This document shows positions 41,894 to 44,946 of a stretch of 60,584 nucleotides of DNA, one piece after another; positions within the stretch are counted from its first letter, which is position 1; each line of letters opens with the position of its first letter. This DNA is from Armatimonadota bacterium. GTDB taxonomy: Bacteria > Sysuimicrobiota > Sysuimicrobiia > Sysuimicrobiales > Humicultoraceae. Both the position numbers and the translations under genes were made by a program. The DNA is taken from positions 1-60,584 of the forward strand of contig JAVHLY010000017.1 in the NCBI GenBank assembly GCA_031081585.1. Reading direction: 5' to 3'. Under the pieces are notes generated by a model. The model made no database searches and was not told the origin of the DNA. It was given only the letters and a program-made list of their open reading frames with translations.

Positions 41894-42388
41894 ATGAGGG
41901 TGGAACCGGTGAGTCGGCCTGCTGCCGTCGAGCGCGACTTCGAAGCGTTCGTCCTCCCCCATCTCGGCTACCTGTACGGCCTGGCGGTCAGGCTGCTCGG
42001 CCAGCGCGAGGGGGCCGAGGACCTCGTCCAGGACGCGCTGCTGCGGGCCTTCCGCGGCTTCCCCCGGCTGCGTCACCACGAGCGGGGCCGGCTGTGGCTC
42101 ACCCGCATCACCACCCGGGCCTACTACGACCGGTTGCACTTGGACTTCCTCGACCTCTTCGACAGCGAGAAGGTCATCGCCGTGCTGGCCGCGCTCCCGC
42201 CCGGGTACCGCACCGCCCTGATCCTGGCGTACGTGTACGGCTTCAAGGCCCGCGAGGTGGCCGAGAGCATGCGCGTCCCCCTGGGCACCGTGCTGTCCAT
42301 GCTCTCGAGGGGCCGCCGGCGGCTGGAACGCGAGCTCTGGCAGTTCGCCACCACCAACGGACTGCTGCACCGGGAGGCTCGGGGATGA
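41894..42388 (+). CDS. ECF-type RNA polymerase sigma factor
   Basis: 164 residues. Region 2: FVLPHLGYLYGLAVRLLGQREGAEDLVQDALLRAFRGF, with the -10 recognition helix. Region 4: LAALPPGYRTALILAYVYGFKAREVAESMRVPLGTVLSMLSRGRRRLERELW, a helix-turn-helix for the -35. No region 3 or long extension. It heads an operon with a zinc-finger anti-sigma factor, a methyltransferase and two Cys-rich membrane-associated proteins, so it likely answers a thiol, metal or oxidant stress. Confidence 0.92.
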   Translation: MRVEPVSRPAAVERDFEAFVLPHLGYLYGLAVRLLGQREGAEDLVQDALLRAFRGFPRLRHHERGRLWLTRITTRAYYDRLHLDFLDLFDSEKVIAVLAALPPGYRTALILAYVYGFKAREVAESMRVPLGTVLSMLSRGRRRLERELWQFATTNGLLHREARG

Positions 42389-42410: not shown

Positions 42411-42647
42411 ATGATCACGTGTCGCGAAGCGGTGGCCCGCCTGTGGGCGTACCTAGACCGCCATCTCGGGCGGGTGGAGGAGGCGGAGCTGGAGGAGCAC
42501 CTGGGGCTGTGCCTCCACTGCTGCGGCGAGCTGCGCTTCGCCCAACACCTGCGCGAGCGTCTGCGTGCCTCCGGAGACTCGGCGGTGGACGAGGCGACGC
42601 GCCAGCGGCTGGAAGCCTTCGTCAGGGGCATCGGGGAGGTTGAGTAG
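42411..42647 (+). CDS. Zinc-finger (ZAS) anti-sigma factor
   Basis: 78 residues. ITCREAVARLWAYLDRHLGRVEEAELEEHLGLCLHCCGELRF has the zf-HC2 pattern, with an upstream Cys4 and the His-x3-Cys-x2-Cys zinc set (HLGLCLHC). Soluble ZAS proteins hold the ECF factor until cysteine oxidation or metal displacement. It lies between the sigma factor and the methyltransferase, 3' end abutting the latter's ATG. Confidence 0.88.
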   Translation: MITCREAVARLWAYLDRHLGRVEEAELEEHLGLCLHCCGELRFAQHLRERLRASGDSAVDEATRQRLEAFVRGIGEVE

Positions 42648-43481
42648 ATGGCGGATCCGCACCGTCACCTCGGCGCAGTGGAGTCGGGCGACCTGCTGGG
42701 CCAGGACGCCATCAAGGCGTCGGTCCGTGCCGCCTACCGGGAGATCATCGGCCAGGAGACGGGAGCGGCCGCCGCCCTCTACGATCCGGAGCAGCTGGCG
42801 GCGCTCCCCGCCGGCGCCGTCGCCCAGGCGCTGGGGGTCGGCAACCCGATCCGCCACGCCGACCTCCGGCCGGGCGAGGTGGTGGTGGACCTGGGCTGTG
42901 GCGGGGGGATCGACACGATCCTGGCGGCCCGGGCTGTGGGGCCCCAGGGGCGGGCCATCGGGCTCGACATCCTCCCGGAGATGCTCGAGGCGGCGGCGCG
43001 CCACGCCCAGGCGGCGGGCGCGACGAACGTGGAGTGGGTCCAGGGGGAGCTCGAGGCCATCCCCCTGCCCGACGGCGTGGCGGATGTGGCCATCGCCAAC
43101 GGCACCGTGAACCTCTCGCCGCGCAAGTCGCGGGTCTTCGCCGAGGTCTTCCGGATCCTGCGCCCGGGCGGGCGCTTCGTGGCCGCCGACATCGTGGTGG
43201 ACGAGGACCTGCCGCCGGAGATCCGGACTCACCCGGCCGCCTGGGCGGGGTGAATCTCGGGAGCGCTGGCGGAGGGGACCTTCGCCGCCAAACTGCGCAA
43301 GGCCGGCTTCGAGGCGGTCGAGCGGGTGGAGGAGCGGCCCTTCGGGCCGGAGCAGTGGGGCGCCTACCCGCTGCTCACTCCGGACCTGCTAGACCTGGTG
43401 CGACGGCTCATCCCGCCGGAGCGACAGGCGACGGTGACCCGCTCGGTGACCTTCCGGGCGCGGAAGCCCGCCGCTCCCTGA
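42648..43481 (+). CDS. ArsM-like SAM methyltransferase with in-frame TGA (candidate selenocysteine 202)
   Basis: Conventional translation stops at the TGA 43251-43253 after 201 residues; read through, the frame gives 277 residues and ends 33 nt before the next gene. Rossmann motifs: VVVDLGCGGGIDTIL (79-92), GRAIGLDILPEML, NLSPRKSRVFAEVFRILRPGG. The TGA sits in HPAAWAG-*-ISGALAEGTFAAKL, exactly where ArsM-type enzymes have a Cys before the I-x-G-A-L motif (the third arsenic-binding Cys). The other two ArsM cysteines read Val64 and Gly152, so arsenite is not certain as substrate. ATG 42648 has GGGGAGG upstream. A nonsense mutation or base error is the alternative. Confidence 0.75.
43268..43286 (+). 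promoter_or_regulatory. SECIS-like hairpin just downstream of the in-frame TGA
   Basis: GGCGGAGG pairs with CCTTCGCC (8 bp including one G-U) around the loop GGA. The loop starts 23 nt after the TGA and its first two bases are G, as in the known bacterial SECIS consensus (short stem, G in the first two loop positions, roughly 16-37 nt from UGA). In GC-rich DNA such a stem can occur by chance, so it supports but does not prove selenocysteine insertion. Confidence 0.5.
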
Positions 43482-43514
43482 CCGCCACCATCATCACCGG
43501 GAGGTGAGGGAGAC

Positions 43515-44117
43515 ATGGGATACGCCATCGAGGGCAAGTTGCTGGAAGCCTGCTCGTGCGCAGCCATCTGCCCCTGCTGGGTCGGCCGCGACCCCGACGG
43601 GGGCCAGTGCGACGGGCTCATCGCCTACCACTACGACCGGGGGGAGATCGACGGGGTGGACGTCTCCGGCCTCACCCTGGCCCTGGCGGTCCACATCCCC
43701 GGCAACGTCCTCCAGGGCGGGTGGAAGGTCGTGGCCTACGTCGACCGGCGGGCCACGCCGCGGCAGAAGGAGGCGATCCTGGCAGCCCACACCGGCCGGC
43801 TCGGTGGGCCGCTGGCCGACCTGGCGCCGCTCATCGGCGAGGTGCTGGGCGTGCAGGACGTGCCCATCGACTTCCACATGGCCGAGGGCCGGGGGACGGT
43901 CCGCGTGGGCGACGAGATCAGCGGGGAGATGGAGCCCCTGACCGACCTGCAGGGGCGGCCGACGACGCTGGTGGACAGCGTCTTCAGCACGATCCCGGGC
44001 TCGCCGGCGTTTGTGGGCACGGCGCCCTCGCTGCGGGCGACGATCCCCGCCCACGGGATCGCCTGGGCCTTCGAAGGCCGGAACGCCGTCCTGGGCTCGT
44101 TCCGCTTCGCCGCCTGA
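43515..44117 (+). CDS. DUF1326 protein
   Basis: 200 residues with GGGAGGTGAGGGAG before the ATG. The N-terminus YAIEGKLLEACSCAAICPCWVGRDPDGGQC carries cysteines 13, 15, 19, 21 and 32, the DUF1326 hallmark and a likely metal-binding patch. The rest is beta-rich with repeated Val/Gly strands and no membrane segment. DUF1326 and DUF2182 genes are nearly always neighbours; their joint role is unknown but the cysteines suggest metal handling. Confidence 0.88.
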   Translation: MGYAIEGKLLEACSCAAICPCWVGRDPDGGQCDGLIAYHYDRGEIDGVDVSGLTLALAVHIPGNVLQGGWKVVAYVDRRATPRQKEAILAAHTGRLGGPLADLAPLIGEVLGVQDVPIDFHMAEGRGTVRVGDEISGEMEPLTDLQGRPTTLVDSVFSTIPGSPAFVGTAPSLRATIPAHGIAWAFEGRNAVLGSFRFAA

Positions 44118-44163: not shown

Positions 44164-44946
44164 ATGATCGACGCGCTGCGCACGTCCGACGACCGCCGCT
44201 GGTACACTCTGGCGGTAGCCGCGGTGGTCCTCTTCGCCTGGCTGACCCTGGCGGCCTGGGGGCGGTCCCCCTACGCGGTCTTCCTGGGCCACGGCGACGC
44301 CGGGGAGGTGTTCCCTCCGCCAGCGGGATCCTCCCCGGCGCTCCGCCTCGGCCTCTTCGTCGGCGGGTGGGTGCTCATGACGGTGGCGATGATGCTCCCC
44401 GCCAGCCTGCCGCTCCTCACCCTCTTCCGGCGGATGGTGCACCACCGCCGCCGTCGCGGGGGGCTGCTCGTCGCCCTGAGTGCGGGGTACCTAGGCGTGT
44501 GGGGCCTCTTCGGCCTGGGGGCCTACACCGGCGACCGGGTGGTCCACGTCGTCGTCGACCGCGCGGGCGCCGGGGCGGCGGCGGCCGCGCTGCTCCTCCC
44601 CACGGTCCTGCTGGCCGCCGGGCTCTACCAGTTCACCGGCTTGAAGGACCGCTGCCTGCAGGCCTGCCGGTCCCCCTACCTGTTCGTAGCCGAACGGTGG
44701 CGCGGCCGGCGGCCCGCGCTCGAGGCCTTCCGGCTGGGGGTGGACCACGGGCTCTTCTGCGTGGGGTGTTGCTGGACGCTGATGCTCCTGATGTTCGCCG
44801 TGGGGGTGGGGCACCTGACCTGGATGCTGGTGCTGGGCGCGGTCATGGGCACCGAACGCGCCGCGCCCTGGGGACGGGCCCTCACCCGTCCCGTGGGCGT
44901 GCTGCTGGTGCTCTGGGCCCTGGGCCGCCTGGTGCGCGGGGCGTAG
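44164..44946 (+). CDS. DUF2182 predicted metal-binding integral membrane protein
   Basis: 260 residues from the ATG at 44164; a GTG at 44125 with GAGG nearby is an alternative start. Six or so membrane helices. Family features are GWVLMTVAMMLPASLPLL with paired Met, YQFTGLKDRCLQACRSP with two Cys, and DHGLFCVGCCWTLMLLMFAVG with three Cys. Met and Cys residues lie inside or next to helices, as in metal-binding membrane proteins. It ends the ECF sigma operon and converges on the HD-domain gene 15 nt away. Confidence 0.9.
   Translation: MIDALRTSDDRRWYTLAVAAVVLFAWLTLAAWGRSPYAVFLGHGDAGEVFPPPAGSSPALRLGLFVGGWVLMTVAMMLPASLPLLTLFRRMVHHRRRRGGLLVALSAGYLGVWGLFGLGAYTGDRVVHVVVDRAGAGAAAAALLLPTVLLAAGLYQFTGLKDRCLQACRSPYLFVAERWRGRRPALEAFRLGVDHGLFCVGCCWTLMLLMFAVGVGHLTWMLVLGAVMGTERAAPWGRALTRPVGVLLVLWALGRLVRGA

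Follow-up and report, generated by a model that had tools for sequence, protein, structure and literature searches.

We found that the gene at positions 42648 to 43481 of the window (the whole stretch of 60,584 nucleotides that was analysed, contig C17 of the source genome) contains an in-frame TGA at codon 202, which is almost certainly decoded as selenocysteine (Sec) as judged by sequence comparison. The predicted product is an ArsM-like methyltransferase, and it very probably belongs to a branch, here called SNG, that has a single chalcogen and is distinct from classic ArsM. In the alignments, Sec or Cys at position 202 is the sole conserved chalcogen of this branch. We have good confidence in Sec decoding and the single-chalcogen branch as a joint claim, which does not cover the substrate. 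The features of the region are as follows.

41894..42388, + strand: ECF-type sigma factor, first gene of a conserved operon (Pfam Sigma70_r2 and r4_2; gene order kept in relatives; alignment)
42411..42647, + strand: zinc-finger anti-sigma factor, ZAS/RsrA-like, C4-H30-C34-C37 (Pfam zf-HC2; TIGR03988; 12 relatives)
42648..43481, + strand: ArsM-like SAM methyltransferase, predicted to contain Sec, 277 aa read through the TGA
42837..42839, + strand: codon V64, equivalent of CmArsM Cys72 and AS3MT Cys61, Cys lost (alignment)
43101..43103, + strand: codon G152, equivalent of CmArsM Cys174 and AS3MT Cys156, Cys lost (alignment)
43251..43253, + strand: in-frame TGA, codon 202, predicted Sec, equivalent of CmArsM Cys224 and AS3MT Cys206 (alignment)
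43267..43287, + strand: bSECIS-like hairpin with a 9-bp stem (43267-43275/43279-43287) and loop GGA (43276-43278)
43500..43507, + strand: GGAGGTGA, ribosome site of the next gene, beginning 19 nt past the terminal TGA
43515..44117, + strand: DUF1326 protein with a CSCAAICPCW motif (Pfam; by tblastn, two relatives have it near the methyltransferase too)
44164..44946, + strand: PpoB2/DUF2182 membrane protein, copper chaperone by its Pfam name (Pfam; tblastn)

The methyltransferase frame starts at ATG 42648, runs into the TGA at codon 202 and then stays open up to TGA 43479-43481. This agrees with the initial annotation, which had placed the in-frame TGA at 43251-43253, counted 75 further open codons and recognized an ArsM-type reading in them; the sequence ISGALAEGTFAAKL..AGF is present there. 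The spacing that it gave is also correct: the next gene (ATG 43515) would follow after 261 nt if the first TGA were the stop, and follows 33 nt after the second. Because a frame of 75 open codons has a high chance of occurring at the local G+C, its presence is little evidence.

The initial annotation had named an absence of the decoding machinery from the genome as a refutation of Sec. All four components are present in the 2.88-Mb assembly. The tRNA-Sec scored 78.7 bits (gathering score 47), selB scored 362 bits, selA scored 561 bits and adjoins selB, and selD scored 374.6 bits (L040, G000:C23:826-1752). SelD itself has an in-frame TGA (CAGUASKLSP); thus, the source genome uses Sec elsewhere. 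With the sole exception of G015, a 72%-complete assembly in which neither SelB above the cut-off nor a tRNA-Sec was detected, all genomes that carry an intact TGA gene have SelB above the cut-off, a tRNA-Sec of 66 bits or more, or both. G015 apart, all ten such genomes of the phylum have both SelB above the cut-off and a tRNA-Sec of 66-84 bits. Among the six Sec genomes of other phyla, SelB was found in four and tRNA-Sec in five, with at least one of the two in each. Two of the near-complete Sec-form genomes of other phyla, G111 and G123, have a strong tRNA-Sec and no SelB over the cut-off, and their SelB may be divergent or missed. The TGA-containing SNG genes in these two genomes are L084 and L085 (G111) and L086 (G123). 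We rejected the presence of SelB alone as a predictor of Sec versus Cys, since it is also found in three Chloroflexota whose methyltransferase is a Cys form.

Homologues were searched in 61, 43 and 386 genomes (overlapping sets) and in named genomes. Seventeen other genomes contributed 20 homologues with a TGA at the same codon (21 genes with the window gene), and the remaining homologues have Cys at this codon. Group 1 (L010-L012 and L014-L016, 62-70% identity) has the same-codon TGA in the same sigma/anti-sigma/methyltransferase operon; group 2 (L017-L020 and L054, 47-52% identity) has the TGA, and the operon is absent. Outside the phylum, L082 (G081) has Sec together with the sigma/anti-sigma pair, and seven more Sec genes occur in five other genomes. 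Cys orthologues were found at seven Chloroflexota loci. The gene order of the operon also occurs there, five of the seven loci having the sigma/anti-sigma pair and an OsmC gene. In Chloroflexota, the Cys orthologue is moreover followed by another SNG methyltransferase (WTGC; L061, L062, L064, L066 and L067), which gives a tandem of single-chalcogen methyltransferases.

The exchange of Cys and TGA at codon 202, for which the initial annotation had proposed an alignment of homologues, was thus found, and it also occurs at close range: L013 is a Cys form nested within Sec group 1. In its genome (72% complete), no hit for SelB passed the cut-off and the tRNA-Sec matches did not exceed 54 bits; the near-complete G024 and G030 from the same genus agree with it on both. 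Among the tested genomes of this genus, no SelB exceeded the cut-off and no strong tRNA-Sec was seen, G027 excepted for the latter. G027 also has a truncated copy (L055, end of G027:C34), a sigma/methyltransferase junction in which the TGA is kept. We dropped the reading of this copy as decay following the loss of Sec decoding, because G027 has a strong tRNA-Sec. A deletion is possible, and so is an assembly artefact, because the copy lies about 200 bases from the contig end. The TGA of L079/L083 was rejected as a Sec codon; it is the terminal stop.

The published bSECIS model (constraints quoted in PMC13188914) has a loop of 3-9 nt with G in the first two positions and a stem of 4-16 bp, at 16-37 nt from the UGA and with MFE ≤ −7.5. 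The window hairpin, with loop GGA, 9 bp, a distance of 23 nt from the TGA and −15.1 kcal/mol, lies within all four constraints. The initial annotation had described a stem of 8 bp beginning 14 nt past the TGA with loop GGA at 23 nt; the positions stand, and the stem length is revised to 9 bp, including two G-U pairs. Pairs were counted in the group 1 register (43266-43274/43280-43288). The window hairpin alone has 8 of 9 pairs, which is not significant against synonymous recoding (P = 0.11). Every other readable Sec member of group 1 has 9 of 9 pairs (P ~0.02 each), evidence that in this group rests on codon choice, and group 2 has 8 of 8 (P ≤ 0.001). The hairpin is not formed in nearly all Cys homologues. 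L013 keeps 8 of the 9 pairs, as a recent change from Sec to Cys would leave.

Covariation was estimated for group 2 together with three genomes of other phyla, whose members were picked for a hairpin in the same register. They share the same 8-bp stem and loop GGA with 95.8% of positions paired and 12 double changes (0 of 500 shuffles), some of the pair changes being partly due to amino-acid changes. The hairpins of L086-L089 fold in other registers. No double changes occur in the hairpin stem of group 1, and therefore the covariation test is silent there. Local hairpin free energy compared with synonymous shuffles was too noisy to tell Sec genes from Cys genes, and was set aside for the fixed-register pair counts, which were informative. 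The case for Sec thus rests on homology, TGA conservation and covariation in relatives, not on the window hairpin alone.

Selection continues past the TGA. In group 1, pN/pS is 0.29 after the TGA compared with 0.31 before it, so the decay that the initial annotation had named as a possible refutation is not seen. The AlphaFold2 model of the methyltransferase has a pLDDT of 91.9; the residues after 202 (about 90-98) form two strands of the sheet, and in this model they complete the predicted fold. The nearest PDB folds are CrArsM, CmArsM and human AS3MT. In the alignment with CmArsM (the 5eg5 chain used for comparison is a C72A mutant), residues 64, 152 and 202 of the window protein correspond to positions 72, 174 and 224. 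The TGA therefore falls, as had been claimed, on the As(III)-binding Cys of ArsM (Cys224 in CmArsM, Cys206 in human AS3MT), and the replacement of this Cys by Sec is backed by the machinery, the phylogeny, the Cys/Sec exchange, the selection and the predicted structure.

Two explanations would do without Sec. If the TGA were a real stop, the downstream part would be decay or a relic. An open frame of this length is indeed unremarkable at this G+C, and SNG genes without detected SelB exist. However, purifying selection continues past the TGA, the TGA is fixed at one codon in 21 genes, a stop would cost two strands of the sheet, and the source genome has the full Sec machinery; we consider this explanation very unlikely. 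A sequencing or assembly error for TGC could draw on the one Cys form within the group, L013, but the same TGA is present in 17 other genomes, and the probability of such an error is therefore close to nil.

To place the protein among ArsM-like enzymes, we compared 124 extracted sequences, which are not independent (one is unrelated). The classic class (GCG...SNC), with Cys at the equivalents of 64 and 152, accounts for 89 of the 124 (three proteins being counted twice via overlapping loci), and Cys at 202 is present in 89/89. The SNG class accounts for 34; it has Gly at 152, a residue other than Cys at 64 where readable, and at 202 Sec in 21 and Cys in 13. In a FastTree phylogeny with midpoint root, of likewise non-independent sequences, a split with support 0.93 separated all 30 retained SNG proteins from all 87 classic ones. 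Fitch parsimony gave four Sec/Cys changes within SNG. The other As-binding cysteines were lost in every Sec-form homologue sampled. This extends the claim of the initial annotation that the window protein has lost them and may not act on arsenite: the loss is general across Sec forms. Because all other As-binding cysteines are lost, the substrate is probably not arsenite. The restriction of Sec to a branch without the other As-binding cysteines is new here, in that it was not found in the literature searched, which excluded the main paper on the fused families. The source genome also has a separate classic Cys-type ArsM (L059, G000:C15:46394-46909).

The sigma and anti-sigma genes are the constant neighbours in group 1. 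The C4, H30, C34 and C37 of the anti-sigma factor are kept in 13 of 13 aligned sequences, and C-H-C-C is the ligand set of redox-sensing ZAS factors. The anti-sigma factor is a candidate thiol-redox sensor. The sigma factor of the window lacks a stretch of about 41 residues between regions 2 and 4, including EDPFPYSD, which is present in all 12 aligned relatives; YYDR and SDR flank the join, which would fit a deletion between short repeats. The other partners vary and include CMD/AhpD-like proteins, cupins, OsmC, DUF1326 and PpoB2. DUF1326 and DUF2182 found no mention in the literature searched. SNG methyltransferases repeatedly have OsmC-like genes as neighbours, in this phylum as well as in Chloroflexota and a haloarchaeon; OsmC was not found in the window. 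On a plasmid of Halomontanus rarus (L153:2408-3792), OsmC is directly followed by an SNG methyltransferase of the Cys form, the same pairing in another domain of life. One genome of another phylum has DsrE-like and ArsR-like neighbours. The lost residues and the neighbours suggest that the sigma/anti-sigma/methyltransferase operon probably responds to thiol or electrophile stress.

The best mechanism that we infer is a thiol-stress enzyme that holds a soft substrate on one ligand. UGA 202 would be read as Sec by the SelA, SelB, SelD and tRNA-Sec of the genome with the hairpin just 3' of the codon, and the product would be an ArsM-fold SAM methyltransferase of the separate SNG branch. The Sec selenolate may, as the only soft ligand, keep a thiophilic atom of the substrate beside the SAM methyl group. 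Candidates for the substrate, which would then be methylated and released, include dimethylated arsenicals, other metalloids and reactive sulfur or selenium species. Inorganic arsenite would not be a substrate, as the lost cysteines are needed for it. The C156S and C206S mutants of human AS3MT perform neither methylation step, and C61S loses the first step, the methylation of iAs; dimethylarsenite binds one cysteine (PMC3877260). A lone Cys206 equivalent should then not be enough for the methylation of inorganic arsenite, which may by analogy apply to the window protein.

A metalloid-type substrate is conceivable at somewhat less than an even chance; a substrate outside both the metalloid and the sulfur/selenium classes is a possibility that we would not favour. 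Under reactive-sulfur or thiol stress, the Sec might carry the chalcogen of sulfide, persulfide, selenide or a small thiol, so that a compound of sulfur or selenium is methylated. This would fit the recurrent OsmC-like genes, the DsrE-like and ArsR-like neighbours and the ZAS anti-sigma factor; however, the window has no detected OsmC and the fold is nearest to metalloid enzymes, and we regard this substrate class as rather doubtful. An ordinary arsenite methyltransferase in which Sec merely improves As(III) binding seems improbable. Sec does align with the As-binding Cys224/Cys206, the top PDB folds are ArsM and AS3MT, and a 2026 review places a Sec-ArsM under NF008823. However, V and G stand in for Cys72 and Cys174, human AS3MT mutants without these cysteines are dead on iAs, the source genome already has the classic ArsM at C15, and the window protein reaches only 233 bits against NF008823 (cut-off 263), whereas a classic ArsM of the same phylum reaches 339 bits. 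There is about an even chance that SNG as a whole, all Sec-ArsM included, is a distinct class misnamed arsenite methyltransferase, in which one essential chalcogen (Sec or Cys) serves, under reactive-sulfur or thiol stress, to methylate a soft substrate other than arsenite.

Genes of this type score below the current NCBI models, so automatic annotation would probably end them at the TGA. That Sec is confined to proteins lacking the other As-binding cysteines suggests that the Sec forms are misnamed as arsenite methyltransferases. One active-site chalcogen in a well-studied fold, with no fewer than four swaps between Se and S on the sampled tree, offers a direct test, and it could reveal what selenium contributes in a methyltransferase, as opposed to redox enzymes.

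An arsenite methyltransferase with UxxG is already listed as a selenoprotein under NF008823 (PMC13188914), and besides it three fused Sec-ArsM variants have been catalogued. Sec at the UxxG site of an "arsenite methyltransferase" is thus already described, and ours is not a new kind of selenoprotein. The published UxxG protein, known here from the family listing, has, like the window protein, the ArsM fold with Sec in place of the same As-binding Cys, and the U-x-x-G that goes with it; the window protein differs in falling below the NF008823 cut-off. The ArsM/AhpD (NF041537), ArsM/DUF2284 (NF041536) and MTase/UXPK-star (NF047649) proteins also contain an ArsM-type Sec methyltransferase domain. 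However, these are double selenoproteins, whereas the window protein is a single-domain protein with a single Sec and scores far below their cut-offs (190/510, 168/575 and 165/460); two SNG Sec proteins from other phyla have clearly their best scores against these models. Classic ArsM/AS3MT (CmArsM, CrArsM and human AS3MT) has in common with the window protein the fold, the SAM motif and the Cys224/Cys206 position. The window protein differs from it in lacking the Cys72 and Cys174 equivalents, in having Sec for Cys and in its own C-terminal YPLF region. The regulatory pair resembles those of the SigR-RsrA type, in which an ECF sigma factor is likewise adjacent to a C-H-C-C zinc-finger anti-sigma factor. 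Unlike RsrA, the anti-sigma factor of the window is below the cut-off of the RsrA model (TIGR03988, 37.8 bits, cut-off 62.5) and sits with a Sec methyltransferase, and its redox response is putative.
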